The translations under genes and the position numbers were made by a program. A DNA stretch of 63,558 nucleotides, from the NCBI RefSeq assembly GCF_000964425.1, contig NZ_BANF01000050.1, positions 1 to 63,558 of the forward strand, given 5' to 3'. Positions 8,673 through 55,546 of the stretch are shown piece by piece. The first letter of the stretch is position 1. Each line of letters starts with the position of its first letter. The notes under the pieces are model-generated. The model did not search any database. It saw nothing but the letters and a program-made list of their open reading frames with translations, and had not been told where the DNA came from. This DNA comes from Komagataeibacter intermedius TF2. GTDB taxonomy: Bacteria > Pseudomonadota > Alphaproteobacteria > Acetobacterales > Acetobacteraceae.

Positions 8673-10016
8673 CTAATGGCGCATGCTCATGCTGACGATG
8701 AAAAAGAGCGCCATGATCAGCCCGAGGCCCCACGCGGTGGGCGTGACGTTACGCCACCGCCCCGCCGCGACATTCATGACGATGTAGGAAAATGTGCCAA
8801 AGGCCATGCCGTTGAGCAGGTTGCCCGTCAGCACCGCGAACATGAAGGTCATGATGGCGGGTACGGACTGTGTCATGTCCTTCAGGTCCAGCCGCGATAT
8901 GGCGCCGAACATCAGGATCCCCACCATGACCAGCGCGGGCGTGGTCGCCTGTGGCGGAATGATCATGAACAGTGGCCACAGGAACAGGGCCGCGACAAAT
9001 CCCAGCGCGATCACCACGGCCACCAGCCCGGTGCGCCCGCCCATCTGCACCCCGATCACGGATTCCAGATAGACCGCCACAACCGCCGTGCCCAGAACCG
9101 GCCCCAGGATCGTCCCGGCCGCATCCGCCGCAAAGGCCCGCGTGGCATTGGGGATCGACCCGTCCCGGCGCAGCATGCCCCCCGCACTGGCAATGCCCAG
9201 CAGGTTGGCCAGCGTGCCAAACAGTTCCGTGCACAGGAAAAAGATGATGACGGGCAGGACGTAGAAGAAATTGTGGAAGATGTAACCCGGATCCATATGG
9301 AACGCCGTGGCCGATGGCCAGACGGGCATGGCGAACATGCGCGTGGGCCAGTGGGTGATCGTTCCGCCATGCCCGTCGGGCACAAACAGCCCGATAAGGG
9401 TCAGCCCCGCGATCGAGATGATCAGCGCCCCCGGCACGCCGGCCGCCACCAGCGCCGGGGTAATGACCAGCCCGGCAAATGTCAGCATGACGGCGGGACT
9501 GGACAGCGCGCCCATGGTGACAAGTGTCGTGTGGTTGCCCACCACGAAACCGGCATTGCGCAGGCCAATGAACATGATGGTCAGCCCGACCGCGATCTGG
9601 ATGCCCACCCGCAGGCAGTCGGGCATGCCGTCGGCCATGCGTTCACGCACCTTTGTCACGGTCAGGATCATGAACACGATGCCCGTCAGGCACACGATGG
9701 CCAGCGCCGCAGGCCACGGCACGCCCATCTGCTGGACCATGACAACGGCGAACACCACGTTCGAGCCGATGGCGGGCGCAAGGCCCAGCGGCAGGTTGGC
9801 CAGCAGCCCCATCGTGGCGGATGCGATGATGGCGATCAGGCAGGTGGCCGTCAGTTCGCTGGCGCGGTCCATGCCCGCGTTGCTCATGATGGCGGGGTTG
9901 ACCGCAACGCAGTAGACCATGGCGGCGAACGTGCCCAGTCCGGCCACGACTTCCCGCCCGGCGGTGGTTCCGGCTGCCCGCAGGTGAAACAGGCGTTCCA
10001 GCAGATTTGTCTTCAT
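8673..10016 (-). CDS. NCS2/AzgA-type purine permease
   Basis: A 447-residue multi-pass membrane protein of the AzgA (guanine/hypoxanthine/adenine) branch of NCS2 permeases: GTTAGREVVAGLGTFAAMVYCVAVNP at the start (given in part), LPLGLAPAIGSN, GLRNAGFV and TELFGTLANLLG in the later helices. It would import purine bases by proton symport. A longer reading from 10058 exists, but the ATG at 10016 has a GGAG five bases upstream and is preferred. It is followed by adenine deaminase and preceded by a GntR regulator, which supports adenine or hypoxanthine as substrate. Confidence 0.88.
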   Translation of the reverse strand: MKTNLLERLFHLRAAGTTAGREVVAGLGTFAAMVYCVAVNPAIMSNAGMDRASELTATCLIAIIASATMGLLANLPLGLAPAIGSNVVFAVVMVQQMGVPWPAALAIVCLTGIVFMILTVTKVRERMADGMPDCLRVGIQIAVGLTIMFIGLRNAGFVVGNHTTLVTMGALSSPAVMLTFAGLVITPALVAAGVPGALIISIAGLTLIGLFVPDGHGGTITHWPTRMFAMPVWPSATAFHMDPGYIFHNFFYVLPVIIFFLCTELFGTLANLLGIASAGGMLRRDGSIPNATRAFAADAAGTILGPVLGTAVVAVYLESVIGVQMGGRTGLVAVVIALGFVAALFLWPLFMIIPPQATTPALVMVGILMFGAISRLDLKDMTQSVPAIMTFMFAVLTGNLLNGMAFGTFSYIVMNVAAGRWRNVTPTAWGLGLIMALFFIVSMSMRH

Positions 10017-10059
10017 TGACACTCCGGCAACCGTGGCGCGTGCCGAGGTGGCATGCATC

Positions 10060-10129: not shown

Positions 10130-10921
10130 TTACCCGCCGGGGGGCCACGGGTCACGCGGCACGAAATCGGTATCGGGCAGGTTGCCGCCATGGGCCGTGA
10201 TGGAAAGCCGCGCAATGCCAGGCCGTGCAAGCAGGGTGCTGTGTTCGCACGCCGTCCCCGCGTCATCACAGGTAATGCGGCGCATGACCATGACCGGGCT
10301 GCCGCATGGCAGGTCCAGTTCGGCCGCCAGGGCATGCCGTGCTTCCGTCACGTCCACCGTCAGGTGGGTGCGGCCAAGCCGCAGGCCGATATGATCCACC
10401 ATGAGCCGGGGCGATGAATGGACACGGGCATCGTGTTCGGAAATGAATGCCCGGAAGGCTGGTGGATAGTACACTTCCGTCAGCGCCACAGGCACATGGT
10501 CGATCAGGTACCGCCTGCGCAGCAGCAGGGCCTGCCGCCCGTCGGGTTCCAGCGCCGCCTGGACCTCCGGCGGCGCGGGTTCCAGCCCGAACGCCAGCAG
10601 TTCCGTTTCCACCTTCATGCCGCGCGCCTGCAGGATGTCGCTCAGCCCCATGACCGGGTCAGGGCGCGGGGGCGCCGTGCGCTCCGCCGGGGGGACGACA
10701 AACGTGCCCCTGCCCTGCCTGCGGCAGACCAGCCCGGCGTTTTCCAGATGCCGGAGCGCATGGCGGATGGTCACGCGGCTGACGCTGTAGATCCGGCACA
10801 GCGTCGCTTCCGAAGGCAGCCGGTCGCAATAGCCATCTTCCCGACCGATCCGGCCGGTCAGGTCCTGGGCGATCTGGTGGTGCAGCGCGCGTGATGAATT
10901 GGGATCGGATAGGGTCTGCAT
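10130..10921 (-). CDS. GntR-family (HutC subfamily, UTRA domain) regulator
   Basis: A 263-residue regulator with an N-terminal GntR winged helix (about 10-75; DRLPSEATLCRIYSVSRVTIRHALRHL) and a C-terminal UTRA ligand-binding domain (RRRYLIDHVPVALTEVYYPP, and the later SPVMVMRRITCD). UTRA domains bind small metabolites such as urocanate, sugars or nucleobases. It is upstream of and co-directional with the purine permease and adenine deaminase genes, so it is probably their repressor with a purine as inducer (inference from position). Confidence 0.88.
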   Translation of the reverse strand: MQTLSDPNSSRALHHQIAQDLTGRIGREDGYCDRLPSEATLCRIYSVSRVTIRHALRHLENAGLVCRRQGRGTFVVPPAERTAPPRPDPVMGLSDILQARGMKVETELLAFGLEPAPPEVQAALEPDGRQALLLRRRYLIDHVPVALTEVYYPPAFRAFISEHDARVHSSPRLMVDHIGLRLGRTHLTVDVTEARHALAAELDLPCGSPVMVMRRITCDDAGTACEHSTLLARPGIARLSITAHGGNLPDTDFVPRDPWPPGG

Positions 10922-11070: not shown

Positions 11071-11088
11071 CTGTTATTTTCCCGTTAT
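11071..11088 (+). promoter_or_regulatory. Candidate PHO box upstream of acid phosphatase
   Basis: CTGTTAT-TTTC-CCGTTAT: two 7-base direct repeats with a 4-base spacer, like the PhoB-binding consensus CTGTCAT-N4-CTGTCAT (6/7 and 5/7 matches). It lies about 45 bases before the phosphatase start codon. One imperfect site only. Confidence 0.3.
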
Positions 11089-11132
11089 GATCCGGGCCAT
11101 ATAATAACCCAAGTCGAGCAGATCGGGGATCC

Positions 11133-12728
11133 ATGCCGGGACGCATCCTTACCGAACACTTCCGTTTCATGGCACGTGGCAGCTGGCGGCTGCCTGGTCT
11201 TGGCATACTTGCTAGCACGATCCTGACCGCCCTTCCGGCGGGGCCGGTGCAGGCCGCGACACCGGGGCAACTGGACCAGATCGAGACCGTGGTGGTCATC
11301 TTTGCCGAAAACCGCTCGTTCGATAACCTGTATAATGGCTTTCCCGGTGCGGATACGTTCGCAGGCAGGCCCCTTTCCGATTTTGCCCAGCGTGACCGCG
11401 ACGGCTCCATCATGCGCGAACTTCCCCCCGTCTGGGGCGGGCTGACCGGTCGCGGCGTGCGTAACGCCGTGACGCAGGCCATGAGCGCCCACCTGCCGAA
11501 CCAGCCGTTCCGCGTGGATGATCCGAAGGGGTTCAACGTACCGCTCAGCACGCTGACCCATGACCTGTGGCATCGTTTTTATGAAAACCAGATGCAGATC
11601 AACGGTGGCCGGAACGACATGTTCGTGGCGTGGGCGGATTCCGGCGCCATGCCCATGAGCTACTGGGACGGCAGCAGGATGCGGATGTGGGACGTCGCGC
11701 GGAAATATACGATGGCGGACCACTTCTTCATGGGGGCATTCGGTGGGTCGTTCCTCAACCACCAGTGGCTGGCCTGTGCGTGCGCGCCCTTCTATCCGCA
11801 GGCTGACGCCAGTCCGGCGCATCCGGTCATTTCGGTGGTCGACCCGTCGGGCAAGGCGCTGGTGGTCGCGCCCAATTCCCCGCGTTCGGCGCTGGACGGG
11901 GTGCCCAAGTTCGTCCGTGACGGCAACCTGACGCCGGACTTTCATGCCGTCAACACCATGCAGCCTGCCTATCAGCCCAGCGGCAACCCGGCGGCGGCAG
12001 GGCAGGATGCGCGCTTTGCCGACCCGACCAGCCCGACAACCCTTCCCCCCCAGACCGAACCCACGATTGGTGACCGGCTGAGCGAGCGCAGCATTACATG
12101 GGCGTGGTATTCCGGCGCATGGCAGGACGTGCTGGATCACGGCAACCACTATCCCGCCCCCGATTTCCAGTATCATCACCAGCCCTACAACTATTACCTG
12201 AACTATGCCCCCGGCACTGCGGCGCGGCAGGCGCACCTGCGTGATGGCGGGCTGGCAGGCGCGCGGTTCATCGACGCGATTGACCATGGCACCCTGCCGC
12301 AGGTCGCGTTCTACAAGCCGCAGGGCAACCTGAACGAACATTCCGGCTATGCCGACATCCAGTCAGGCGACGAGCATATCGCCGACCTGATCGACCATCT
12401 GGAGAAAAGCCCCCAGTGGCCGCACATGCTGGTGATCGTGACCTATGACGAAAATGGCGGCCTGTGGGACCACGTGGCCCCGCCAGAGGGCGACAGGTGG
12501 GGGCCGGGATCGCGTATTCCCGCCATCATCGTCTCCCCCTATGCGCGGCGTGGGTACGTGGACCATACGGTGCAGGACACGACTTCGATCCTGAAATTCC
12601 TGACCGAACGCTTTCACCTGCGTCCGCTGGACGGGCTGACGGTACGTGACCGTGCCATACAGGCGGCGACCGGCCATCCGCTGGGCGACCTGACGACCGC
12701 CCTCGACCTGCATCCCACCGGGAAATAA
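11133..12728 (+). CDS. Exported acid phosphatase/phosphoesterase (AcpA/PLC superfamily)
   Basis: A 531-residue enzyme with a signal peptide (hydrophobic residues about 20-41, cleavage after VQA). It belongs to the phosphoesterase family that includes Francisella AcpA and bacterial phospholipase C. The metal/nucleophile region AENRSFDNLYNGF lies at 58-70 and the late metal site is YDENGGLWDHVAPP. It would release phosphate from phosphomonoesters such as nucleotides in the periplasm or medium. It is six bases upstream of an RNase T2 gene, suggesting that the phosphatase acts on the nucleotides that RNase T2 releases. A PHO-box-like repeat precedes it. Confidence 0.83.
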   Translation: MPGRILTEHFRFMARGSWRLPGLGILASTILTALPAGPVQAATPGQLDQIETVVVIFAENRSFDNLYNGFPGADTFAGRPLSDFAQRDRDGSIMRELPPVWGGLTGRGVRNAVTQAMSAHLPNQPFRVDDPKGFNVPLSTLTHDLWHRFYENQMQINGGRNDMFVAWADSGAMPMSYWDGSRMRMWDVARKYTMADHFFMGAFGGSFLNHQWLACACAPFYPQADASPAHPVISVVDPSGKALVVAPNSPRSALDGVPKFVRDGNLTPDFHAVNTMQPAYQPSGNPAAAGQDARFADPTSPTTLPPQTEPTIGDRLSERSITWAWYSGAWQDVLDHGNHYPAPDFQYHHQPYNYYLNYAPGTAARQAHLRDGGLAGARFIDAIDHGTLPQVAFYKPQGNLNEHSGYADIQSGDEHIADLIDHLEKSPQWPHMLVIVTYDENGGLWDHVAPPEGDRWGPGSRIPAIIVSPYARRGYVDHTVQDTTSILKFLTERFHLRPLDGLTVRDRAIQAATGHPLGDLTTALDLHPTGK

Positions 12729-12734
12729 CCCTTC

Positions 12735-13550
12735 ATGCCATATCGTGCCCTGACCGCCCTTCGTGGCCTGCATCCGACGCTGGCTGCGCTTGTCCCGGCC
12801 CTGTGCCTTATGGCCGGATGCGCGCATACGCCGCCGTCCACCCATACGGACGCGCTGTCGATACCCGTAGCCCGGCATGGCGATTTCGGGCATTATACGC
12901 TGGCGCTGACGTGGCAGCCCGGCTTCTGCACGGATCAGCACGGGTCAGGCTGCCAGCCCGACCAGCCACATGCGCCGCTGATCGGGCTGCATGGGCTATG
13001 GGCCTCGCGCCCGTCCGACCTGGTGCATGAGGGCCTGCCCGTGACCCAGTGGTGGATCAAGGGATGTGACATTTACCAGCATGACGATACGCCACCGCGG
13101 CTGTCCCCCGCGCTGTCGAAACGGCTGTCGGGTACGGTGGCCCATACCCGTTCCAGCCTTGTCACCCATGAATATACCAAGCATGTACAGTGCTTCGGCA
13201 TGAATGCCGAACGGTTCTTTAACGTGGCCAGCACGTTGCGCGACCGCTTTGCCGCAGGTCCCGTGGGGCGTGAACTTGACCATGATGCCGGTCGCGACAT
13301 CAGCAAGGCCGACGTGATCGGGTCATTTGAAAAGACATATGGCGCCCTGCCCGAGCGGGGACTGCAGTTCCGCTGCAATACGGACGCGCAGGGCCAGCCG
13401 ATCCTGGCGCAGCTGTGGTTCACGCTGGACCCAAAAAATCTTGGGCGCTTTCCCGCCGCTTCGGGCTTTCTGCCATCACCGGATGTGCAGGATAACTGCC
13501 CCGCCCGCTTCCATGTTCCCACATGGCCGGTCACGGCGCAGGCCGGGTAA
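12735..13550 (+). CDS. RNase T2-family ribonuclease, lipoprotein
   Basis: A 271-residue RNase T2 homologue. The signal peptide ends in a lipobox LMAGC (Cys29), so it is probably membrane-anchored and exported. Both catalytic segments are present: CAS1 in GLHGLWASRP (His86) and CAS2 in HEYTKHVQCFG (His145, Glu146, Lys149, His150). RNase T2 enzymes cut single-stranded RNA with little base preference via 2',3'-cyclic phosphates to 3'-nucleotides. It is tightly linked to the upstream acid phosphatase, which could dephosphorylate the products. Part of the extracytoplasmic nucleic-acid digestion set. Confidence 0.9.
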   Translation: MPYRALTALRGLHPTLAALVPALCLMAGCAHTPPSTHTDALSIPVARHGDFGHYTLALTWQPGFCTDQHGSGCQPDQPHAPLIGLHGLWASRPSDLVHEGLPVTQWWIKGCDIYQHDDTPPRLSPALSKRLSGTVAHTRSSLVTHEYTKHVQCFGMNAERFFNVASTLRDRFAAGPVGRELDHDAGRDISKADVIGSFEKTYGALPERGLQFRCNTDAQGQPILAQLWFTLDPKNLGRFPAASGFLPSPDVQDNCPARFHVPTWPVTAQAG

Positions 13551-13776
13551 TGTCAGCCTGCCGGTAGGGGCATGACATGCATCGTGGCTGTCCGGCAGGA
13601 CGGTGGAACAGATTTTCAGGCTGAAACGTCCCGCGCGACGGGATGCTGCGGCCGGCCCCGGCGGATGACAGGGGGAGCCTCACGCCAGCGCGGCGGGGCT
13701 GAAGGGCATGTCCGGTTCATGCGGCGCCGCGCCAGCATGCGGTACGGATACAGCCATAGCAGAAGGAAGAAAGTTC

Positions 13777-15876
13777 ATGCCACGCATCTCCCGCCGGTCT
13801 TTCCTGAAGGGAGGCGCCGGTTCCGCGATGTCCGCCATGCTGATGTCTTCCATCAACCGCGCGCTGGCCATTCCCGCCAGCCGTCGGGCCGGGACAATCG
13901 AAGATGTCGAACATGTTGTCGTCTTCATGCAGGAAAATCGGTCGTTTGACCATTATTATGGTCACCTGAATGGCGTGCGGGGCATCAATGACCGGCACCC
14001 CGTGCTGCGGCCCGATGGCAGGCCCGTCTGGTTCCAGCCCCGGCTGAAGGCGGACCATGGGGATATCCTGCCATTCCATCTGGATACGCGGTCAACCAGT
14101 GCGCAGTGCGTGGTGGACCTGGATCATAGCTGGAAGCCGACCCATGCGGCCATCAACGCAGGGCGCAATGACCGCTGGCCGCCGAACAAGACCGACATGA
14201 CCATGGGCTATTACACGCGGGATGACATTCCATTCCATTATGCGCTGGCCGATGCCTTTACGGTATGTGACCATTATTTCTGCTCCACCCCCACCCAGAC
14301 CCATCCCAACCGTTTTTACCTAATGACCGGCATGGTCGATGCCGATGGGACGGGCGGTGGCCCCATCCTTGACAACATCGACTGGGTGGACCGGGCCGCG
14401 TATGGTCACGTGCCGCCGCCCTTTACATGGACAACCTACCCCGAACGGCTGGAAAAGGCCGGTGTGTCATGGCAGGTTTACCAGCAGGGGCTGGAAGGGC
14501 GTGATCTGGAAAACGGGAATTTCGGGACCAATATCCTGATGAATTTCCGCAATTTCGTCCATGCGCCCGAAGGGTCGTCCCTGCACAGGCGGGCGATGAC
14601 GCGCCGCACGCTGGATGACCTGCGCGCGGACGTGCTGGGGCACCGGCTGCCGCAGGTCTCGTGGCTGCTGCCGCCCGCGGCCTATTCCGAACATCCGCGC
14701 TGGACGCCGGATTATGGCGCGGCCTACATCGCCCGCATCCTTGACGCCCTGACGGCGGACCCGGATGTATGGTCGAAGACCGTCCTTTTGCTGATGTATG
14801 ACGAAAATGACGGCTATTTTGACCACATGCCCCCACCCCAGCCGCCGACCCCGGTACTGCCGGGACGCAGCACGGTCAGCACCCGGGGCGAAATCCATAA
14901 CCGGCTCATGGATTTCTCACCACAGGCCTATACGGTCGATAACCTGCCCTATGGCCTTGGGCCACGTGTGCCGATGCTGGCGATTTCACCATGGAGTACG
15001 GGTGGCTTCGTCTGTTCGGACGTATTCGACCATACATCGGTCATCCGCTTTATCGCCGCCCGTTTCGGGGTGGATGAGCCAAACATCACGCCGTGGCGGC
15101 GGTCCGTCTGTGGCGACCTGACCACGGCCTTTGATTTCTCGGCCCCCGGACAGACGCGCCTGGGGGGACTGCCTGATACGCGCGACTACCGTGAAAAGGT
15201 GGAACAGGCCCGCCACCGTGTCGATCCGGCCCCGCCACCGCGCAGCGCGGCCGGGGACATGGGCATACAGGAAAGTGGCACCCGTCCCCTGCGCCCCACG
15301 TCCTACGATCTGGCGGTAAACGAAACCACGGGCACGGATGCAGGTGCGCTGGCGCTGGAATTTTCCAGCCACGGCGCGTTGGGCGCGTGTTTCCATGTCT
15401 ACCATGAACATACCGATGACGTGCCGCGCCGCCATACGGTAGGCGCGGGCGACAGCCTGACCGATACGCTGGACCTGTCGCCGCATGGCGTGGATGTCTG
15501 GAGTGTGACCGGGCCCAATGGGTTCCTGCGCCGTTTCCACCGTGCCGGTCCATCCTCCATCATGGTCGCGGCCCGTCATGCGGGGGATGGCCAGTCACTT
15601 GTTCTGGAACTGACCAATCACAGCGATCATGCGCGGCATGTGCGGATTCATGATAACGCCTACCATCAGCATGCCATTCACCTGACCGTACCCGCCAGTG
15701 CAACGATCCGGCATGAAATGGCGTTTGCGGCCAGCGGCGGCTGGTACGATTTCAGCGTGTCTGTCCGCCACGAACGCCATACGCTGACACGACTGGCCGG
15801 GCTGGTCCCCACGGGGGCACCCGGCATTACCGACCCGGCCGCCACGTCGCCCGTCCTGCATCCCCTGAAAGTATGA
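13777..15876 (+). CDS. Phosphocholine-specific phospholipase C, Tat-exported
   Basis: A 699-residue phospholipase C of the PlcH/PlcN type. The start at 13777 has a GAAGGAAGAAAG ribosome binding site and begins with a twin-arginine signal (SRRSFLKGG, residues 5-13), so it is exported folded. The catalytic phosphoesterase domain (about 42-480) has QENRSFDHYYG (52-62) and YDENDGYFDHMPPP; the C-terminal part (about 510-690) matches the repeated beta-sandwich domains of these enzymes. It hydrolyses phosphatidylcholine or sphingomyelin to phosphocholine and a diacylglycerol or ceramide. It lies 226 bases after the RNase T2 gene and ends next to a strong hairpin repeat. Confidence 0.88.
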   Translation: MPRISRRSFLKGGAGSAMSAMLMSSINRALAIPASRRAGTIEDVEHVVVFMQENRSFDHYYGHLNGVRGINDRHPVLRPDGRPVWFQPRLKADHGDILPFHLDTRSTSAQCVVDLDHSWKPTHAAINAGRNDRWPPNKTDMTMGYYTRDDIPFHYALADAFTVCDHYFCSTPTQTHPNRFYLMTGMVDADGTGGGPILDNIDWVDRAAYGHVPPPFTWTTYPERLEKAGVSWQVYQQGLEGRDLENGNFGTNILMNFRNFVHAPEGSSLHRRAMTRRTLDDLRADVLGHRLPQVSWLLPPAAYSEHPRWTPDYGAAYIARILDALTADPDVWSKTVLLLMYDENDGYFDHMPPPQPPTPVLPGRSTVSTRGEIHNRLMDFSPQAYTVDNLPYGLGPRVPMLAISPWSTGGFVCSDVFDHTSVIRFIAARFGVDEPNITPWRRSVCGDLTTAFDFSAPGQTRLGGLPDTRDYREKVEQARHRVDPAPPPRSAAGDMGIQESGTRPLRPTSYDLAVNETTGTDAGALALEFSSHGALGACFHVYHEHTDDVPRRHTVGAGDSLTDTLDLSPHGVDVWSVTGPNGFLRRFHRAGPSSIMVAARHAGDGQSLVLELTNHSDHARHVRIHDNAYHQHAIHLTVPASATIRHEMAFAASGGWYDFSVSVRHERHTLTRLAGLVPTGAPGITDPAATSPVLHPLKV

Positions 15877-15930
15877 AAGACTGTTCGCCTGAAAAGGCGA
15901 TTTACAAAACACCCTGTAAATCAAATGAAA

Positions 15931-16002
15931 GTTTTTGGTGAAGCTTCTTTCAAAAAGCTTTGGAAGACGTCGCCTTTTTGAAAAAAGGCGACGTCCGGAA
16001 AC
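15931..16002. repeat. Hairpin repeat, copy A (also likely terminator)
   Basis: Begins GTTTTTGGTGAAGCTT and contains a perfect 14-bp stem GACGTCGCCTTTTT (15966-15979) / AAAAAGGCGACGTC (15982-15995), then CGGAAACT. It lies between the convergent phospholipase C and amidohydrolase genes. Related copies occur at 23275, 38041 and 57068. Confidence 0.7.
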
Positions 16003-16004
16003 TA

Positions 16005-17576
16005 TTATTTCGGGCCTGTCAGACGTGCATTGGGCAGGCGTGCGCGGGTTTCTTCCAGTGTTTCACAGGGGGGCTCATTCGGGGGCGTGCCGGTGGTGAC
16101 CAGCGGATAGATATGCCGCCGCGCCATATCACGTTTCAGGGTCGCGAAGGAAAAATGCTGGTCCGTGCGGATACACAGCGCCTTGGCCTGCCCGTCAATA
16201 ACCACCTTTTCACAGCCGGGCTGATGCAGGTGGCGGATAACCTTGCGATCCCCATAAAGGACATGGCCGCCCCGCATGACCATGTCGACGGTACCGGGTG
16301 TGGACTGGACCGCCGCGTCGTACGGTGTCTGGCCCTGCGGACGGAACAGGACAAGGTCCGCCACGTGGTCCGGCGCGATTGCCCCCATCACGCTGCCGCC
16401 ATGCACGGCTTCGGCCCCGCCCTGCGTCGCCATGCGCCACAGGTCACGTGACGACAGGGCGCTGGCAAGGTGGTCGCGGTTGTAATGCACGGCGCAGGCG
16501 AATTCCCGGCTCATGTTCATGGACCCCGAGGGCAGCCAGTCCGTGCCAAGGGCAATGGTCACGCCATGGGCACGGGCTGCGGGAATGTCCACGGTCCGTC
16601 CATACAGCGCAAGATTGCTGCGTGGTGACCAGACAAGGCTGATCCCCCTGTTGTGCAGCAGGTCAAAATCATTCGCACCCAGCCCCACCCCATGCAGGAT
16701 GGTCATGCCCGGCTGCATCATGTCCTGACTGATGCCACCGCCACCCTTCTGTGGCGTGCGATCATAGGTATTGGAACTGAGGCAGCGGAATTCATTATGG
16801 GCCGCCCCGTTCGTGCCTTCCGCCACATGGGCAAGGAAGGCGGGCGTGGCTGCGACATCGGCGGGGGTGGACGGGTGGTGCCCGTAATCGCAGTCATGCG
16901 TGCGCATGATCCCGGACACGTCATCAAGGGGGAATATCTGGTATGTGACGGGACGTTGCGGCAGCCCTTCAAGCCCCGCGGCAAAATCCAGGTTGCGGAC
17001 AAGGCCGGGCGCCATGCTGTCCCCCACCATGGACGTTATGCCGCTGATGAGGAAACGCAGTTCACCCCATGCGATCAGTTCCGGATTGGTATCGCCAATG
17101 GCGCCCTTCAGCTCCGTATGGCCGTCAAGGCCCTTGCGCCATTCATTGCGGTGTTCGAACCGCTCCCCCGTATCGGGCTGCGGCGCGTCGCCGGTGAAAT
17201 CGATATGGTCATGGGGGTTGATGAAACCGGGCGAAAGGCTGTCCTGCGGGCAACTGATGACGGTCGGATGTGGTGCGGTCGGCTGGCACGTGGCACCGGC
17301 ACACCGGATGATGCCGTGGGCGTCGATGATGACCCGTCCCGGCTTCGGGTCGGGCGTGTCGTCAAGGAGAATGGCTTCGACCACCGTTTCCCCCTTGCCC
17401 GCATGCACGGTGCAGCGTGGCCCCGTCGCCGCATGGGCGGCGGCGCCCCATGTCAGCATGGCAAGGGCGGCAAGATGGGTCCGGGACCCGCACGCCTGCC
17501 TGAGGAATGTGGATGTCCGGCTGCGGGCGCATGCTGTCACGCAAACATGGGACAGGATGAAGGGGTCAGCATTCAT
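16005..17576 (-). CDS. Exported amidohydrolase
   Basis: A 523-residue metal-dependent amidohydrolase with a hydrophobic export segment (LAALAMLTWGAAAHA, about residues 38-52). The beta-strand 1 metal motif is PGFINPHDHIDF, the central His is in ILHGVGL, and the late Asp in LGTDWLPSGSMNM. Overall it is related to deaminases of the TrzN/guanine deaminase type, but the substrate is unknown. The start is uncertain: ATG 17576 is chosen, and ATG 17621 is an alternative. It is co-directional with the upstream carboxylesterase (83-base gap). Lying among exported nucleases, it may process a nucleobase or related heterocycle outside the cytoplasm (inference). Confidence 0.7.
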   Translation of the reverse strand: MNADPFILSHVCVTACARSRTSTFLRQACGSRTHLAALAMLTWGAAAHAATGPRCTVHAGKGETVVEAILLDDTPDPKPGRVIIDAHGIIRCAGATCQPTAPHPTVISCPQDSLSPGFINPHDHIDFTGDAPQPDTGERFEHRNEWRKGLDGHTELKGAIGDTNPELIAWGELRFLISGITSMVGDSMAPGLVRNLDFAAGLEGLPQRPVTYQIFPLDDVSGIMRTHDCDYGHHPSTPADVAATPAFLAHVAEGTNGAAHNEFRCLSSNTYDRTPQKGGGGISQDMMQPGMTILHGVGLGANDFDLLHNRGISLVWSPRSNLALYGRTVDIPAARAHGVTIALGTDWLPSGSMNMSREFACAVHYNRDHLASALSSRDLWRMATQGGAEAVHGGSVMGAIAPDHVADLVLFRPQGQTPYDAAVQSTPGTVDMVMRGGHVLYGDRKVIRHLHQPGCEKVVIDGQAKALCIRTDQHFSFATLKRDMARRHIYPLVTTGTPPNEPPCETLEETRARLPNARLTGPK

Positions 17577-17659
17577 GAACGGCGGGATCTTTCCTGTCTG
17601 GGTATCATGGACCCGCGTCATATGCCCGCCATCGGGTGTTCGGCGCGGGTGATGTGTGA

Positions 17660-19279
17660 TTATGGGAAAAGGCTGTTGGGAATGGCGGGGTGACGGTCCC
17701 AGAACCCGCAATGGTGACGGGTTGCGACGTCGCGTTCGACCCGGATCCCTCCATCGGCCGGCAGCGCCAGCACCGTGACATCGGGGGCCTGCGGGGTCCA
17801 TGCTGGCCATGGCGCGGTCGTGCCTGATCGTCCGAACGTGGCCCACATATCCATCATCCGCGCGGACAGCGCCTGCTGCGCGGGAGATAGCGGACCGGCA
17901 ACGGATTTGTAACCAAACAGGTACAGCAGTTCCGCCGTATGGGACGCGCCACGGTCAAATCCCGGCGCATCCGGCAGTTTCATGGCAAGCGAGCGGAAAG
18001 GGGGCGCGGTGCGGTCGGCAAATTCATAGACGGCAACATGCGTCGGGCCATTCAGCACCGCCGCCGCCCGTAGCGCGGGACAGATCAGCATCTGGTCCGT
18101 GCGCAGGGCGGAAAGGGTATAGACCGGGTCCTGCCCCGCGATGAGAGGATATTCCTTTTGCAGGTCCGCTGCGAACCCGCTGTAATCCTGCGTCAGCAGC
18201 GCGTGGTAGCGGTCAGTTGACAGCGGATAATAGCCCGCAAGGAATGTCCGCAGTTCGTCGCGGTTGAAGCCGATCAGGACGGGAACGGACCCCACGGCGC
18301 CAGCCCGGATTGCCGCGTCCACCGGCTGGGGCTGCAGGGTGCTGCCGGATGGCGTGATCGGAAACAGGGGGCGGGAGACGGATGTCCCGTCCTTCAGCCG
18401 GACGGCTGGCTGCTGCCATACCGTATTCCATGCCGCCAGCAGGGCGGGAACCGGCAGGCGCTTCATGCAGGGCAGCGGGTCGGGCCCCGTGCAGCCGGCC
18501 GCCTGCGCCGTTGCCGTGCCGACCGCCTCCATCACAGCGCGCGTGGGCCGGCCGGGGCAGAAGCCGCTCTGCATGATCGCCTGCGTTACAAGCCCATGCG
18601 CCGCGGGTGCACCCAGTACGTCACATATGTTCGCGGCCCCGGCGGATTCTCCCACCACGCTCATGCCCGTGGCGTTGCCACCAAATGCCGCGATATTGTC
18701 GTGGGTCCATTTCAGCGCCGATATGATATCGCTGAGCGCCAGATCCCCCTGTGGCTGCCCCTGTTCACCCCCAAGGGCCAGGAAACCGAAAACCCCCAGC
18801 CGGTAGGTGGGAATGACCACGATGGAATGGGTGCGCGTGGCGAATTCCGTCCCGTCATAACTGGCGGGCGTGCCGGTCTGGTTGCCGCCGCCATGAATGA
18901 AGACGGTTACTGGCAGGCTGGCATGTGCATCCACGCCTGCAGGGCGATAGATGTTGAGGTACAGGCAGTCCTCATTCACCGTCTCGCCCACATCGGCGCT
19001 GATCGGGGCGGCGCAGCCCATGCGCGCGGTCGTGGCCTGGACGGGGGCGGGATAGGACGCGAGGGGCGTGGATGGCTGCCACCTGCCCTGCCCCGTGGGC
19101 GGGGCGGCGAACGGAACGCCAAGGAAAATATCCGCATTCCCCCGCTTCATGCCCGAGATCACGCCCGCAGGCGCCGTGACCGATGGGGCCGCGGCCTGTG
19201 CCGCCGCGGCCGCCAGCATGCCGGTGGCAGCGGCAAGAACAGCCGAAAGAAGCCCGCGCGCTAACGTCCGTTCCTGCAT
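17660..19279 (-). CDS. Exported type-B carboxylesterase
   Basis: A 539-residue carboxylesterase with a signal peptide (LLSAVLAAATGMLAAAAAQA). Family landmarks: the NEDCLYLNIYRP segment, oxyanion hole FIHGGG, nucleophile elbow GESAGA, acidic residue region GFNRDELRTF and catalytic His in GASHTAELLYLFGY. It would hydrolyse ester bonds outside the cytoplasm. Co-directional with the exported amidohydrolase downstream and the PLD3/4-like gene upstream. Paralogues of this family are broad in substrate, so none is assigned. Confidence 0.87.
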   Translation of the reverse strand: MQERTLARGLLSAVLAAATGMLAAAAAQAAAPSVTAPAGVISGMKRGNADIFLGVPFAAPPTGQGRWQPSTPLASYPAPVQATTARMGCAAPISADVGETVNEDCLYLNIYRPAGVDAHASLPVTVFIHGGGNQTGTPASYDGTEFATRTHSIVVIPTYRLGVFGFLALGGEQGQPQGDLALSDIISALKWTHDNIAAFGGNATGMSVVGESAGAANICDVLGAPAAHGLVTQAIMQSGFCPGRPTRAVMEAVGTATAQAAGCTGPDPLPCMKRLPVPALLAAWNTVWQQPAVRLKDGTSVSRPLFPITPSGSTLQPQPVDAAIRAGAVGSVPVLIGFNRDELRTFLAGYYPLSTDRYHALLTQDYSGFAADLQKEYPLIAGQDPVYTLSALRTDQMLICPALRAAAVLNGPTHVAVYEFADRTAPPFRSLAMKLPDAPGFDRGASHTAELLYLFGYKSVAGPLSPAQQALSARMMDMWATFGRSGTTAPWPAWTPQAPDVTVLALPADGGIRVERDVATRHHCGFWDRHPAIPNSLFP

Positions 19280-19431
19280 GTCGCCACCTGATCATCGTTC
19301 ATTTCATTTCTTTATCATTACAAAATGGACGTGCCAAGCCGGTTCGGGCGCCATATGGTGGCAGGGCAGCCCGCCCCGTGTTGTCATGCGGCACATGCAT
19401 GGAATGTGGATGAAGGTGCCTTTGTGCCCGG

Positions 19432-20736
19432 TCAGTCGCGCTTTGGCATGGTGTAGGTCCTGCCCGCTTCGAGCTGGGTTACATATGGTCCGGTCCAGTC
19501 ATGCATGAAAATGGCGTTCAGGTCCCGCGCAGGTGATGCGCCATGCACGAAAATGGATGCATTGACCGTTGTCGTGAAATAGCTGGGTTCCCAGTTGCCG
19601 GTCCCGATATAGACCGCATTATCATCCGCGACCGCGTATTTGCAGTGTTCAACCCGCGCGAATGGTATCTTCTCCCCCGGCATGTCGGGAACCGTGCTGA
19701 ATTTGACGGTGACATGCGGCAGGACGGACAGTGACTTGAGATAGGACTGCATCGGTTCGGACAGCGACCAGTTGGACACGATGATCTGGGTTTCCACCCC
19801 CCGCGCCGCCGCATCGCGCAGGGCGGTATCCAGTACGGGCCAGTAGCCACGCGCACCGTAATGGTTGAATGCGCTCATGGTCAGGACCTGCAGACGCAGG
19901 GTCCTGCGCGCGCCATGAATCATGTCCACCAGCGCCTTTTCCTCGGTCGTCAGGGAAGACGGCATCATGACCGCCGGGCTGAAGGCGGGAAAGGCAATCA
20001 GCGGCTGCGTCCCGTCCGACAGGATAATCGGGTTGGCCTGCGTTACGGGCGCGAAATCCGGTGTCGCCGCGAATTTGGCATAGGCATTGGACAGTGGCGC
20101 GCCCTGCGCCAGCATCCACAGCATGTTGAAATCCGATTCAAAATCCCGTGCTATCGGCGCATTGTCGATCCGTGCGCCAATTTCGTGAATGTGTTCAAGC
20201 GCGCGCCAGTCCCAGTTCTGGCTGCCTACGAATACGCTGTTATTATCAACAACCATGTATTTGGCATGCAGGATCCCCCCCGTCAGCGTGTGGCCGGGCA
20301 GAATGGCGGTCGTGATGTTGGGAACGCTCTTCAGCTTTTCCAGAACGCTTCCGGTTTCCTTCAGGAAGGACTGCTCCACCACGATGCGCACCTGCACGCC
20401 CGCCCGGGCGCGTTCCGTCAGGGCGTCAAGGATGTCGGACATGCTGTGGCCGGGTTTGTCCGTAATATAGAAAACCGCCGCGTCAATGGAATGCTGCGCG
20501 TGGTGGATCATGTCCAGCCAGACATCCTTGGTGCGGGCGATGCCGGACTGGCCGTACAGGGAATTTTCCGGCACGCTTTCCACGATCTGGAAATTCCTCT
20601 GCGCGCTGTCATCCGCGCGGGCTGTGCTGCCGTTTGCGACAAGGCTGCCTATGGCCATGGCGCAGCCCGCCAGCCAGCGCAGGCGTCCGTGTCGGGAGGT
20701 CTTACGCGAAAGAATGCTGTCTGAAAAAAGGATCAC
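19432..20736 (-). CDS. PLD3/PLD4-like exported phosphodiesterase, probable exonuclease
   Basis: A 434-residue phospholipase D superfamily protein with a signal peptide (LAGCAMAIGSLVANGSTARA, 23-42) and two HKD motifs: HAKYMVVD (His157, Lys159, Asp164) and HCKYAVAD (His364, Lys366, Asp371). Beyond these, conserved blocks recall animal PLD3/PLD4: NWDWRALEHIHEIG, ARDFESDFNMLWMLA, NWSLSEPMQSYLKSL, IPFARVEHCKY, YIGTGNWEPSYFTTT and LNAIFMHDWTGPY. PLD3/4 are lysosomal 5'-exonucleases for single-stranded DNA and RNA rather than classical lipases. Translation probably starts at a GTG with AAGGGCG eight bases upstream. Its neighbours (S1/P1 nuclease, RNase T2, phosphatase) favour a nuclease role. Confidence 0.82.
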   Translation of the reverse strand: MILFSDSILSRKTSRHGRLRWLAGCAMAIGSLVANGSTARADDSAQRNFQIVESVPENSLYGQSGIARTKDVWLDMIHHAQHSIDAAVFYITDKPGHSMSDILDALTERARAGVQVRIVVEQSFLKETGSVLEKLKSVPNITTAILPGHTLTGGILHAKYMVVDNNSVFVGSQNWDWRALEHIHEIGARIDNAPIARDFESDFNMLWMLAQGAPLSNAYAKFAATPDFAPVTQANPIILSDGTQPLIAFPAFSPAVMMPSSLTTEEKALVDMIHGARRTLRLQVLTMSAFNHYGARGYWPVLDTALRDAAARGVETQIIVSNWSLSEPMQSYLKSLSVLPHVTVKFSTVPDMPGEKIPFARVEHCKYAVADDNAVYIGTGNWEPSYFTTTVNASIFVHGASPARDLNAIFMHDWTGPYVTQLEAGRTYTMPKRD

Positions 20737-20858
20737 GGCGTATCGCCCTTTTTTGAAATGAACATGAAATCCGTTCCGTCTCCTGCACAGGCCGCAGGAA
20801 AATCCGGTTTATGCCGCCGGGCCGCCCATGCGCCGCATATGGCACGCAGGCCGCCGTG

Positions 20859-21767
20859 TTACCGTCTGGTCTTGACCTTCACATCCGCCAGATCCCGATT
20901 CAGGACGAATGCCAGCCGGACACCGGCTTTTTCCAGCTGTTCCGTGACGACCGTGCGCGCCGTTGCCTCGTATCCCGCAGGCAGCGACAGGGGCGCGCTG
21001 TTGGCGTCGCACCCTGCCGGGGGGTGAAAATCATATACGTATGTCTTTGCCAGACTGAAGCTTTCCATGGCCCACTGCGTGGGGGTGCCGGCCTGCCATG
21101 CATCTTTCTGGTTGACGGAAATCTGGTCGAACAGCCGGTCGGCCAGATGCCGGGCGTCCGGTTCTATTTCCGTGACCACCGCCGTGTCCCAGTAGCTGTG
21201 CAGGTTGGTCGTGCGTGGACCGCCCAGGCTGATCCGCACGCAGTTGCCGCCCCGGTCGTCATGGTCCGCCGCGTGCAGGGGCTGGTGCATGTCCCCCACG
21301 AAATGAATGACATATTTCAGCGCCAGCACGCGGTCCGCATCCGTGGACGCCGGGTTGGACAGGACATGCTCAAAGCGTTCAAGCTGGCTTGTGACACAGG
21401 CCTGTCCCCCGCCCTGCGCCGGGGTCTGGCAGGCAGCGGCCATGTCAGGGTGGTCGATTTCAAGGTCGATGAAATGCCACGGCCCGGTTTCCGGGTGTCC
21501 GGCGGCGCGCCATTTATCGGCCCATGTCGCGCGTGACATAAGGTCCGGCGCGGTCAGCGTGTCATGATCCGTGGCGAGGATGGCATCAACCTTCGCACGG
21601 GTATCCGGTGTCATGTATTTCCACGCAAGTGCTGCAATGGCTTTGTGGCCTTCCATGCCCCATGCATGCGCCCGGTCGGGACTCAGGGACAGGCCGAGGA
21701 GTGCGGCGCCGATGCACCAGACCGGTTTGCGCCTGCTGGCGCGCGTATCGGAAGACCTGCTGTTCAT
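20859..21767 (-). CDS. S1/P1-type nuclease
   Basis: A 302-residue zinc nuclease. The signal peptide ends AHA-W, making Trp36 the mature N-terminus, whose amino group is a zinc ligand in P1 nuclease. Other ligands are visible: His41 (WGMEGHK), Asp in ATWADKWR, His in WHFIDL, His/Asp in IHFVGDMHQPLH and LHSYWDT. Such enzymes cut single-stranded RNA and DNA to 5'-nucleotides and have 3'-nucleotidase activity, so they could also process 3'-nucleotides made by RNase T2. Co-directional with the PLD3/4-like gene (122-base gap). Confidence 0.92.
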   Translation of the reverse strand: MNSRSSDTRASRRKPVWCIGAALLGLSLSPDRAHAWGMEGHKAIAALAWKYMTPDTRAKVDAILATDHDTLTAPDLMSRATWADKWRAAGHPETGPWHFIDLEIDHPDMAAACQTPAQGGGQACVTSQLERFEHVLSNPASTDADRVLALKYVIHFVGDMHQPLHAADHDDRGGNCVRISLGGPRTTNLHSYWDTAVVTEIEPDARHLADRLFDQISVNQKDAWQAGTPTQWAMESFSLAKTYVYDFHPPAGCDANSAPLSLPAGYEATARTVVTEQLEKAGVRLAFVLNRDLADVKVKTRR

Positions 21768-21914: not shown

Positions 21915-22997
21915 TCATGAGGGAATATTGTCGCGGTATTTTTTCCAGTTCGACAGGATTTCCTCGATTACCGGCTCCCCTGCCCGTTCGTTATTGTCAA
22001 ACGCCAGCGACTGCCCCGGTCCTTCATCGCCCATCGACTGGGTTACGGGCACGCCCGGCGGTGGAACCGAGAAATTGCTGCCCGAACGCAGCACCATGAT
22101 CCGGTCGGGATCGACAAAGCCCAGCGTGGCGAGCGTGCGCATTTCGCGCTGGTAGGTCTGGCTTTCCTCATTCGTCATGACGAACTGGCCCTGTCCATGC
22201 GTCCACAGCCTGACCCAGTCCTGCGCCCAGCGGTTGCGTGGCGCGCCGTGCCAGTAGCGTTCCGCGCCCAGTGTCTCGCCCATCAGGACAAAAGGTGGCT
22301 TGCGGGCCTGATCGAAGCCCGTCCATGCCTTGCGCCGCAGGGCGATGGCCGGGTCATCGGCCAGATTGACCCGCTGGCTGAGCGCAAACGCCCAGCGTGC
22401 CAGCCCCTGGTTAAGCGGATATGCCCGTGTCAGTTCTGCTACATCCGTCACCGATCCGTAATGGTTCGGTGCTTCCGGCAGGGTATTGGGGCGTGATGCG
22501 CCGATGGCGTACAGCCCGTAAGGCCAGTCCCTGGGAATGGTGCGGTCGTCGATCTCACGCAGGGCGTCGCCATCCACGACCCAGCGCGCCCATGCGACAC
22601 TGCCGACCGAGGCCGCATTGGGGTCAACACCCGAAATACCCGTAAACAGCCAGTAGGTGTGATGGAAGTCGAAACGCGGATCAAGGACGAACGCCGCAAG
22701 GTCCGTTACGCCATGCCGCAGCACCAGGCCATACAGCCCCGCCCTGTTGCGGCGGACCACGTCGGGCGCACCGCGGACAGGTACTTTTTCATCCAGATGT
22801 TCACGTTCGACCCAGTTCTGGTACTCACCGGGTTCGTCGCCGCTATCCGCGCCGTTTTCCCAGTTGGTCACGACAACAAACCTGACTTCCTGCGCAGGTG
22901 GCGCGGCATGCGCGGCCATGGGCAGGCAGGCCGCGCCCGCAAGCATGACAGATGTAAAAATACCGGCAGGGAACCTGCTTCGCCTCTGGTCAGCCAT
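21915..22997 (-). CDS. NUP-family purine nucleoside protein, periplasmic
   Basis: A 360-residue protein with a signal peptide (SVMLAGAACLPMAAHA) that resembles the NUP family named after a Candida purine nucleoside permease: VRFVVVTNWENGADSGDEPGEYQ at the mature N-terminus (in part), TGISGVDPNAASVGSVAWARW and GSRPNT-like downstream segments. No transmembrane helices follow the signal, so it is unlikely to be a permease by itself. As I recall, the family falls in the purine/uridine phosphorylase fold group, which would suggest a periplasmic nucleoside-binding or -cleaving enzyme. ATG 22997 is used; the preceding TTG is less likely. Co-directional with the S1/P1 nuclease. Confidence 0.72.
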   Translation of the reverse strand: MADQRRSRFPAGIFTSVMLAGAACLPMAAHAAPPAQEVRFVVVTNWENGADSGDEPGEYQNWVEREHLDEKVPVRGAPDVVRRNRAGLYGLVLRHGVTDLAAFVLDPRFDFHHTYWLFTGISGVDPNAASVGSVAWARWVVDGDALREIDDRTIPRDWPYGLYAIGASRPNTLPEAPNHYGSVTDVAELTRAYPLNQGLARWAFALSQRVNLADDPAIALRRKAWTGFDQARKPPFVLMGETLGAERYWHGAPRNRWAQDWVRLWTHGQGQFVMTNEESQTYQREMRTLATLGFVDPDRIMVLRSGSNFSVPPPGVPVTQSMGDEGPGQSLAFDNNERAGEPVIEEILSNWKKYRDNIPS

Positions 22998-23349
22998 CAA
23001 ATACTTTCGCTTTCATTTCCAGACCACCTCCACCATGAAATACAGATGCATCCGAAAGCGACACAACGGCGCCGCCGCCCCTGATTACTCCCGGTTGCCC
23101 ACGGACCATGCCACGCGCCCGGCATGGCCGGATCATCACATCAGGTGGATGGGACCGGTAGACGTTACAGATGCGGTCAGATTGCACCAGATACAAAGAC
23201 GGCCACAGACTGTTGCATTTTAATTGACACCTTTTCGTCCCGGTCCGCTCCGGGATCAGGTCGTGGGTGGAGGAGGTGTCGCCTTTCTGGAAAAGGCGAC
23301 ACCCGGAAACTTTTATCTTTTTTTCAATGGGCTGTTTTCAGGCAGCTTC
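22998..23349. other. Intergenic region with hairpin repeat
   Basis: No convincing gene. Holds the promoter region of the NUP-family gene and, near 23275-23312, copy B of the hairpin repeat family. Confidence 0.6.
23275..23312. repeat. Hairpin repeat, copy B
   Basis: Perfect 12-bp stem GGTGTCGCCTTT (23275-23286) / AAAGGCGACACC (23292-23303) followed by CGGAAACTTTTATCTTTTTTT, so it looks like a rho-independent terminator on the plus strand, although no plus-strand gene precedes it closely. Confidence 0.7.
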
Positions 23350-29767: not shown

Positions 29768-29793
29768 GCCGATCGGGGATAGGAGAGACGCAT

Positions 29794-32802: not shown

Positions 32803-33222
32803 ATGAACGCTTTTTACAAGAGATCGGTCGACCAGATCGACGCCCGTCGCATTTCACCCAATGACAGCAACTATTTCGTGCTGCTGTTTGATGAAAAGGA
32901 CGGCGGGACAACCTGCGTCGCAGTTGTGGAAATCTTCACGGTAGGCGGCAAGACACCGCCCAACACGCATCGGGCGGCGGATGAACTGTTTTTCGTGCTG
33001 AGCGGACAGGGTCGTGCGCTGTGCAACGGGCAGGCCACCGAACTGCGCAAGGGTGATGCGCTGCTGGTCAAGCCGGGGTCGGAGCATATCGTGGAAAATA
33101 CCGGCGATAAAAAGCTTTATACCCTGACGGTCATGGTGCCGGATGAAAAATTCGGTGCGCTGATCCGTCGCGGCACGCCTGTCGAACTGGATGATGAGGA
33201 CCGCGCGGTCCTGTGCGGCTGA
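32803..33222 (+). CDS. Small cupin protein
   Basis: A 139-residue single-domain cupin. The two barrel motifs are visible as GGKTPPNTHRAADELFFVLSG and GDALLVKPGSEHIVENTG (each given in part); His in NTH, Glu in DELFF and His in SEHIVEN are potential metal ligands. Function could be an isomerase, dioxygenase or decarboxylase on an intermediate, or a sensor. It is tightly packed between the CocE-like and isochorismatase-like genes. Confidence 0.8.
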   Translation: MNAFYKRSVDQIDARRISPNDSNYFVLLFDEKDGGTTCVAVVEIFTVGGKTPPNTHRAADELFFVLSGQGRALCNGQATELRKGDALLVKPGSEHIVENTGDKKLYTLTVMVPDEKFGALIRRGTPVELDDEDRAVLCG

Positions 33223-33233
33223 AGGAAGACCCG

Positions 33234-40899: not shown

Positions 40900-40910
40900 A
40901 TCCGGTTTCC

Positions 40911-44793: not shown

Positions 44794-44831
44794 GGGGATT
44801 CCTTTTTGGTCCGTCGCGGGAAGATATAATC

Positions 44832-46308
<1,477 letters not shown>

Positions 46309-55527: not shown

Positions 55528-55546
55528 CAACAGTGTTCAGGAATTT

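Follow-up and report, generated by a model that had tools for sequence, protein, structure and literature searches.

Does an acetic acid bacterium digest nucleic acids outside its inner membrane with enzymes comparable to those of the animal lysosome, and if so, where do the products go? The question is raised by contig NZ_BANF01000050.1 of Komagataeibacter intermedius TF2 (assembly GCF_000964425.1), which was analysed as one whole stretch of 63,558 bases (the window) of a genome of 3.88 Mb on 943 contigs. A sequence-only reading had described positions 11071 to 21767 as a lysosome-like digestion set of an exported acid phosphatase, a lipoprotein RNase T2, a PLD3/PLD4-like exonuclease and an S1/P1 nuclease. 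All four genes lie within 11133-21767 (Table 1), the phosphatase being of the AcpA type. The interval probably belongs to a Komagataeibacter island for the utilisation of nucleic acids, of which it would form the outer half, acting outside the cytoplasm. The analysis establishes gene identities, copy numbers, catalytic residues, synteny and the predicted fold of one further protein, NUP; the compartment, the co-regulation, the nutritional purpose and all reactions proposed below are inferred, the reactions from what is known of the enzyme families. The surprising part is the presence, beside RNase T2, of a bacterial enzyme of the PLD3 type that has kept its nucleoside contacts.

Four putatively exported enzymes in one interval

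The four proteins belong to the families that had been claimed, and export-like N-termini support the reading of an exported nucleic-acid digestion set: in all four, Lys/Arg residues precede a hydrophobic stretch, and both lie among the first 35 residues. The hydropathy scan behind this is a crude count that separates poorly, as the cytoplasmic-looking adenine deaminase scores equally high, though at residue 49. The genes for the phosphatase and RNase T2 are separated by six bases; RNase T2 reaches 71 bits with the model of E. coli RNase I, far under that model's cut-off of 436.

The genome has one match each for RNase T2, S1/P1 and PLD and one match to TIGR03397 over cut-off, the further TIGR03397 matches being weaker, phospholipase-like relatives. 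Four random single-copy genes would fall within 10.7 kb with a probability of about 8e-8 (analytic; 0 in 2 million simulated draws), a value that applies to genes picked after the fact, having been seen together. The sequence-only reading was right about the locus but too narrow: it overlooked the neighbouring genes and, within the interval, a phospholipase C, a carboxylesterase and an amidohydrolase (amidohydrolase A), so that three of the seven interval genes are by family neither nucleases nor nucleotide phosphatases.

The PLD3/PLD4-like enzyme

The claimed likeness to PLD3 and PLD4 holds: in sequence the PLD of the window is much closer to the human enzymes PLD3 (1e-49) and PLD4 (9e-40) than to NucT, a bacterial nuclease (8.5e-6), and the residues that contact the nucleoside are kept. 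Other matches are a viral nicking-joining enzyme (2e-40) and OPG057 (1e-11), and the best solved relative is SpPLD of Serratia plymuthica (7e0m; 2e-65 over most of the protein). In the structure of human PLD3 with DNA, H201, K203, N218, H416, K418 and N432 are active-site residues, and the 5'-nucleoside is contacted by Tyr126, Asp220 and Tyr411 (PMC10783504). The window PLD has both HKD/HKE motifs (H157, K159, N174, H364, K366, N381), and by alignment and motifs its Y90, D176 and F359 correspond to the three contacts.

The active-site residues, Tyr126 and Asp220 are kept in all 18 PLD3-like proteins compared (the window PLD and 17 bacterial relatives); position 411 is Tyr in eight and Phe in ten, the window PLD included. 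Twenty-four other PLD-superfamily proteins from genomes of the Acetobacteraceae served as control: the second motif is present in all and the first in most, while Tyr126 is found in none of the 18 that have a letter at this position and Asp220 in one of 22. Position 411 is hardly controlled, because 21 of the 24 have a gap there; none of the remaining three has Tyr or Phe. We class the window PLD as a relative of the PLD3/PLD4 family and not as an orthologue of PLD3 or PLD4. The family is uncommon, with 11 of 349 genomes of the phylum positive at 1e-30, the own genome included.

Like the window PLD, SpPLD is exported and has two HKD motifs. It is described as a phospholipase, yet the available Results show no lipid activity and its authors raise the question whether it is a nuclease (PMC8004604); PLD3 is not mentioned in that paper. 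The name bears on an alternative in which the locus is a general island for the digestion of dead cells by nucleases, phospholipases, lipase, esterases and peptidase, nucleic acid being one substrate of several and the PLD perhaps a phospholipase. Such an island would accommodate the phosphocholine-type phospholipase C, the carboxylesterase, a secretory lipase (1232-2722) and an S15 peptidase (at 31152) of the same stretch, and phospholipase C is also found near RNase T2 or S1/P1 in four other genomes (G169, G117, G030, G056). It fits less well with the Tyr126 of the PLD, given the control proteins, and with the islands of K. rhaeticus and of a further Komagataeibacter genome (G182), which have no phospholipase C and no amidohydrolase A, yet retain the AcpA-RNase T2 and NUP parts. 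We regard general digestion as unlikely and prefer nucleic acid as the target of the set.

More tentatively, and with somewhat less than even confidence, we propose that bacteria carry a family of exported 5'-exonucleases of the PLD3 type and that in Komagataeibacter such an enzyme works together with RNase T2 and S1/P1 to convert external RNA and DNA stepwise to free bases outside the inner membrane; bacteria, too, would then have arrived at, or inherited, the lysosomal pairing of RNase T2 with PLD3. In the open-access literature we found no description of bacterial PLD3 homologues, of Komagataeibacter nucleases or of this gene combination. An Acinetobacter protein called 'PLD3' was discarded as a precedent: by its description it is Zucchini-like and does not belong to the PLD3/PLD4 family (PMC4574555). 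The signal stretch of the window PLD contains a lipobox-like LAGC that is also present in K. oboediens and absent from K. rhaeticus, probably a chance occurrence.

RNase T2, S1/P1 nuclease and NUP protein

In RNase T2, the catalytic residues, H86 of CAS I and H145, E146, K149 and H150 of CAS II (His-Glu-x-x-Lys-His), are invariant among ten aligned sequences, the own included, and so is C29; seven loci of the Acetobacteraceae, those with the greatest divergence (L192-L198 less L195, and L200), were outside this alignment. In the window the cysteine is preceded by Met-Ala-Gly and for this reason does not match the simple lipobox pattern; the lipidation assumed in the sequence-only reading is a guess.

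The nine zinc ligands of the S1/P1 nuclease (W36, H41, D84, H98, H155, D159, H165, H190, D194) are invariant in the ten sequences aligned, out of 20 available, again including the own. SmNuc1, the nearest solved relative, has ligands of the same kinds in the same order, including the Trp at the mature N-terminus, and has strong 3'-nucleotidase activity (PMC11705217). Unlike SmNuc1 and other S1/P1 nucleases, the window enzyme is encoded in one set with RNase T2, with the PLD3-like enzyme and with a protein of nucleosidase fold.

This last protein, encoded directly beyond the interval, belongs to the NUP family. It has no sequence match in the PDB, and its fold is a predicted one: the AlphaFold2 model (20 sequences; pLDDT 82, pTM 0.82) has 595 Foldseek matches at 0.001, the best being methylthioadenosine/S-adenosylhomocysteine (MTA/AdoHcy) nucleosidases (6e-9) and uridine phosphorylases. 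The TM-score of the match to an MTA/AdoHcy nucleosidase is 0.66 when normalised to the target and 0.45 when normalised to the query, with a root mean square deviation of 7.6. The model thus has the PNP/UDP fold of the nucleoside phosphorylase/nucleosidase superfamily, and NUP profiles have been placed in the purine and uridine phosphorylase superfamily before (PMC9815663). Candidates for the catalytic residues of nucleoside cleavage are E279 and S308, which are invariant in the sequence alignment, and E48 and N309, which are nearly so. As the start is export-like and no long hydrophobic segment follows it, the protein is more likely an enzyme than a permease. NUP occurs twice in the genome; the second copy (C917) lies 9 kb from an NCS1 permease.

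A proposed route from nucleic acids to bases

By Pfam and NCBIfam the gene content covers such a route end to end. RNase T2 would cut RNA into fragments with 5'-OH and 3'-phosphate ends, and the PLD, as a 5'-3' exonuclease, would take over the 5'-OH fragments. The chemistry of the pair fits: RNase T2 and RNase A family enzymes leave the 5'-OH ends that PLD3 and PLD4 require, and a 5'-phosphorylated dinucleotide was protected (PMC8497607). The S1/P1 nuclease would cut single-stranded RNA and DNA. S1/P1 enzymes cleave the P-O3' bond and leave 5'-phosphate ends (PMC11705217), which should resist an enzyme of the PLD3 type. S1/P1 enzymes also remove 3'-phosphates, however. PLD3-type enzymes release 3'-nucleotides, and S1/P1 could thus convert the 3'-nucleotides made by RNase T2 and PLD to nucleosides. 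The set would thus split into two branches, one for RNA (RNase T2, PLD and 3'-nucleotidase) and one for single-stranded RNA and DNA (S1/P1, with the AcpA-type phosphatase acting on 5'-nucleotides); phosphate would be released by the 3'-nucleotidase and by the phosphatase.

Subsequently, the NUP protein may split nucleosides into bases, exported and cytoplasmic deaminases may convert the amino bases, and NCS2, NCS1, CNT and ABC systems may import the products, with pyrimidines broken down by dihydropyrimidine dehydrogenase, dihydropyrimidinase and an M20 amidohydrolase. The purpose would be to gain nitrogen, phosphorus and carbon from the nucleic acid of dead cells, for example of yeast. Nucleosides and phosphate had been suggested as end products: phosphate release is part of the proposed route, but the presence of a nucleosidase-fold protein and of deaminases makes it more likely that the route ends with nucleobases and not with nucleosides.

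Could the enzymes instead be a phosphate-starvation (Pho) set, which strips phosphate from any organic phosphate and is attached to no pathway for the use of bases? Phosphatases, phospholipases C, RNases and nucleases are typical phosphate-scavenging enzymes. A site similar to the Pho box, with three mismatches to the consensus, lies 44 bases upstream of the phosphatase gene, and another, with two mismatches and on the other strand, near the AcpA gene of G194, which lies outside any island (L177). However, the window contains eight such sites with 4.4 expected, and seven of 100 shuffles had as many. K. oboediens shares the site upstream of AcpA. The best sites of K. rhaeticus and G182 have at least five mismatches, and those of four other AcpA loci at least four. 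Control of the set by a Pho box was thus rejected, as the sites are neither above chance nor conserved in the islands. Deaminases, base permeases and reductive pyrimidine catabolism, moreover, have no role in phosphate scavenging, and we consider a Pho set quite improbable and a route that continues to the bases the better description.

Conservation of the island

A DNA search of the genus covered 19 Komagataeibacter genomes, the own included, and 41 window proteins served as queries for the comparison of gene order. K. oboediens LMG 18849 (taken to be G186) has 40 of the 41 in the same order with 86-100% identity; the 41st, an efflux protein (59-60.6 kb), lies beyond the 60 kb stretch fetched from this genome. 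K. rhaeticus LMG 22126 (taken to be G187) has 23 of the 41, again with the order kept (76-95% identity): RNase T2 is followed directly by carboxylesterase, PLD, S1/P1, NUP, an amidohydrolase B, cytosine deaminase and the genes from the ABC importer to the RutB-like amidase, and the final 7.8 kb of the contig are without further window genes. The PLDs of the two species are 95% and 82% identical to that of the window. G182 has adenine deaminase, NCS2 permease, GntR regulator, AcpA, RNase T2, NUP and amidohydrolase B together on its main contig of 3.1 Mb. Two pairs, AcpA with RNase T2 and NUP with amidohydrolase B, occur in all four island-bearing genomes, the own included. The genes for adenine deaminase, NCS2, GntR, AcpA and RNase T2, together with NUP and amidohydrolase B, form the constant core, and PLD and S1/P1 a less stable layer.

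Among the matches listed in a DNA search of the remaining 15 Komagataeibacter genomes, the phosphatase is found in ten, together with the carboxylesterase in G191, and neither in five; apart from these genes, the listed matches are to a dispersed repeat and short fragments. In nine of the ten genomes with a non-island AcpA (G180, G181, G184, G190-G195), a nucleoside hydrolase lies within a few kb of it, the exception being G189 with the two genes on different contigs; three genomes have a CNT transporter near AcpA and one an NCS1 permease. A nucleoside hydrolase of this type is present in all 19 genomes. In G194 a di-haem cytochrome c peroxidase/MauG-like gene (L177:10801-12102) separates AcpA from the nucleoside hydrolase.

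Across the Acetobacteraceae, 180 genomes were searched for each family: 31 have NUP, 22 S1/P1, 20 RNase T2 and 25 a TIGR03397 match over cut-off, and 37 have a PLD at E<=0.001, six of these full-length (own included). By gene positions, no second genus with the whole set together was found among these genomes. Parts of the set are linked elsewhere. G169, which belongs to another genus, carries RNase T2, a NUP gene split in two frames and phospholipase C consecutively on one strand; the whole 5.6 kb stretch is present in three of 49 genomes of that genus, G169 included, while G708 has kept NUP and phospholipase C with little RNase T2 at the DNA level and G702 phospholipase C and only the end of NUP. 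Phospholipase C adjoins RNase T2 in G117 and lies 5 kb from S1/P1 in G030. In G056 RNase T2, phospholipase C and PLD are spread across 21 kb, which we judge to be a weak linkage. A NUP orthologue adjoins an NCS2-type permease in G174. Neither a nucleoside hydrolase nor a CNT gene was found in 11 phosphatase loci from other genera. In the distant alphaproteobacterium G477 a phosphatase of the AcpA type (52%) adjoins a PLD3-like gene; as a conserved unit this adjacency was rejected, because the PLD is present in one of 149 genomes of that family, G477 itself, and the case stands alone. In G174 (L032/L033) and G042 (L034/L035), an amidohydrolase with 26% identity to amidohydrolase B (100 bits) lies directly beside the PLD in divergent orientation.

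A number of observations weigh against a nucleic-acid utilisation island, in addition to the phospholipase C, lipase and carboxylesterase, which favour a wider digestion of cell debris. The 60 kb fetched around the G182 island contain no PLD, S1/P1, carboxylesterase or cytosine deaminase; the PLD of this genome (79%) is isolated, at a distance of about 335 kb, and S1/P1 is absent from the stretches fetched. Only the window and K. oboediens have the pyrimidine half linked to the exported half; for the nucleoside hydrolase, K. rhaeticus has its closest orthologue on a different contig and G182 at a distance of about 147 kb. Around the PLDs of five genomes from other genera of the family (52-63% identical) the set is not conserved; G174 and G042 among them are from the same genus, and of the remaining three one has phospholipase C and RNase T2 within 21 kb and two have nothing relevant near the PLD. 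Eight of nine more distant bacterial PLD loci share no gene with the window (one of them is a 7 kb contig), and for S1/P1, RNase T2 and NUP, the majority of the loci retrieved from the Acetobacteraceae have only weak or generic matches to window genes in the vicinity. The NUP family owes its name to a Candida protein reported as a purine nucleoside transporter (PMC9431476). Finally, NUP, which is one frame in the window and in K. rhaeticus, is split in two frames in K. oboediens (L158, G186:C267:54197-55290) and G169 (L169:11101-12217), by decay, sequencing error or a frameshift.

Narrow conservation is a weak part of our reading. The co-occurrence on which the sequence-only reading was to be judged is thus found in part: the four genes are together in two of the 18 other Komagataeibacter genomes and the phosphatase, RNase T2 and NUP in a third, but the set does not extend to the five PLD loci of other genera. 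That the full set is unseen beyond a few Komagataeibacter would also be expected from a chance neighbourhood in a small clade, with no joint function. The low probability of random placement, albeit calculated after the fact, the proximity of AcpA to nucleoside hydrolase elsewhere in the genus and the position of RNase T2 beside NUP in another genus all speak for a functional connection and make chance most improbable.

Comparison with the lysosome and other known systems

As in the animal lysosomal route of RNASET2 and PLD3/PLD4, RNase T2 and an enzyme of the PLD3/PLD4 family would act outside the cytoplasm. Kinship with the lysosome, as 'lysosome-like' might suggest, is not supported. A Pfam scan of 49 frames of the window found no DNase II; no search for it was made elsewhere in the genome. 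Lysosomal acid phosphatases have a histidine-phosphatase or a purple acid phosphatase domain; Pfam identifies neither in the window phosphatase, which has PF04185 alone, so that the claimed acid phosphatase is present as an AcpA-type enzyme but of a family different from the lysosomal one. Lysosomal PLD3 is a type II membrane protein (PMC10783504), whereas the start of the window PLD resembles a signal peptide in our crude scan, a membrane anchor being possible. Unlike the animal route, the window set includes an S1/P1 nuclease and is linked to importers. The comparison with the lysosome is one of functional analogy.

Further parallels are Hujiaoplasma nucleasis (Izemoplasmatales) and Vibrio, which grow by secreting nucleases, dephosphorylating the products and taking up and catabolising nucleosides (PMC10470597, PMC4723616), as proposed here. 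In the scheme for H. nucleasis nucleosides are imported before cleavage (PMC10470597), whereas in Komagataeibacter the export-like starts of the nucleosidase-fold protein and of deaminases point to a formation of bases outside. The known reductive pyrimidine catabolism (PreTA, dihydropyrimidinase, beta-ureidopropionase) is represented at 39.6-46.3 kb, with PreA and dihydropyrimidinase over cut-off; unlike in the known pathway, the genes of the window and of K. oboediens lie beside exported nucleases and purine deaminases. The locus is most suitably regarded as a variant form of the known use of extracellular nucleic acids, and it extends well past the interval first described.

If this is correct, acetic acid bacteria have a nutrient route from nucleic acids that we did not find described in the open-access literature, and a testable function would be available for the PLD3-like proteins of bacteria as well as for the 'purine nucleoside permease' family, whose name is probably wrong. 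The pair of exported enzymes would furthermore offer a simple, soluble bacterial model of lysosomal RNASET2 and PLD3.

Other genes of the island

Most of the region between 6.8 and 48 kb fits purine and pyrimidine handling by Pfam and NCBIfam matches (Table 1), and there is a good probability that about 5 to 48 kb form one island for the utilisation of nucleic acids down to the nucleobases. Several of the gene names come from Pfam alone or from NCBIfam models under cut-off. The listed start of amidohydrolase A overlaps the adjacent gene and the real start is probably later; the start of the phospholipase C is similar to a Tat signal (21.6 bits, under the cut-off of 22.7). The S15 peptidase, an FAD oxidase, an alcohol dehydrogenase and a TetR regulator are interspersed without evident role in the nucleobase route.

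Table 1. Position, strand and profile evidence of island genes in the window
Gene product	Position	Strand	Evidence
adenine deaminase-like	6857-8623	-	PF13382 147 bits; TIGR01178 362 bits, under cut-off 472
NCS2-type purine/nucleobase permease	8673-10058	-	PF00860 87 bits
GntR/UTRA regulator, divergent from phosphatase	10130-10921	-	PF00392, PF07702
exported AcpA-type phosphatase	11133-12728	+	TIGR03397 800 bits (cut-off 363); PF04185 312 bits
exported RNase T2, possibly lipoprotein	12735-13550	+	PF00445 40.5 bits (cut-off 26); E. coli RNase I 1e-19
phosphocholine-specific phospholipase C type	13708-15876	+	TIGR03396 814 bits (cut-off 580)
amidohydrolase A, C-terminal part guanine-deaminase-like	16005-17846	-	PF01979 46 bits; guanine deaminase 3e-8
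exported type-B carboxylesterase	17660-19279	-	PF00135 283 bits
exported PLD3/PLD4-family enzyme, proposed 5'-3' exonuclease	19432-20736	-	PF13091 130 bits; PF13918 39 bits
exported S1/P1 nuclease, proposed single-strand nuclease and 3'-nucleotidase	20859-21767	-	PF02265 216 bits; SmNuc1 8qjl 1e-28
exported NUP-family protein, proposed nucleosidase/nucleoside phosphorylase	21915-23000	-	PF06516 307 bits
exported amidohydrolase B, deaminase-like	23350-24795	-	PF01979 117 bits; MTA/SAH deaminase 4e-31; 8-oxoguanine deaminase 2.5e-25
cytosine deaminase	24866-26122	-	NF005759 540 bits (cut-off 403)
ABC importer: NMT1/THI5-type binding protein, ATPase, permease	26340-28911	+	PF09084, PF00005, PF00528
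creatininase-family hydrolase and FAD-binding oxidase	28946-31155	+	PF02633, PF01565
isochorismatase-family amidase, RutB-like	33213-34007	+	RutB model 133 bits, under cut-off 378
CNT nucleoside transporter	36697-37932	+	PF07662 223 bits; TIGR00804 419 bits, under cut-off 442
M20 carbamoyl-amino-acid/allantoate amidohydrolase, proposed beta-ureidopropionase	38313-39584	-	TIGR01879 445 bits (cut-off 204)
dihydropyrimidine dehydrogenase PreA and PreT-like subunit	39625-42260	-	NF006183 719 bits (cut-off 335); PF14691, PF07992
RutR-like TetR regulator	42506-43315	+	PF08362 132 bits; TIGR03613 145 bits, under cut-off 368
NCS1 nucleobase permease	43363-45105	-	PF02133 289 bits; TIGR00800 270 bits, under cut-off 353
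dihydropyrimidinase	44923-46308	+	TIGR02033 604 bits (cut-off 393)
inosine-uridine nucleoside hydrolase	46354-47283	-	PF01156 345 bits
nucleoside 2-deoxyribosyltransferase	47316-48026	+	PF05014 108 bits

A plasmid origin of the stretch was rejected: the matches in PLSDB (11 records) have just 71-74% identity and cover at most 6% of the query. The window contains no Rfam match at gathering scores. As regards an operator of the GntR regulator, an alignment of four species has conserved blocks, with no palindrome that is convincing by eye.

At its left edge the island has two FolD-like genes (tetrahydrofolate dehydrogenase/cyclohydrolase; 3493-4344 and 5884-6798) with an IclR regulator between them. 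K. rhaeticus has kept the two FolD-like genes, and a duplicated folate gene beside purine genes is odd. The dispersed repeat, about 70-140 bases long, lies at 15876-16011 between the convergent genes for phospholipase C and amidohydrolase A and contains a perfect 14-base hairpin (15966-15995). Its Komagataeibacter copies are 77-94% identical among the matches listed, and one is situated at the edge of the K. rhaeticus island. Further downstream, 51054-55530 encodes two tandem PAS-GGDEF-EAL proteins with DosP as the best NCBIfam model (below cut-off), the second of which is present in G182 only in pieces.

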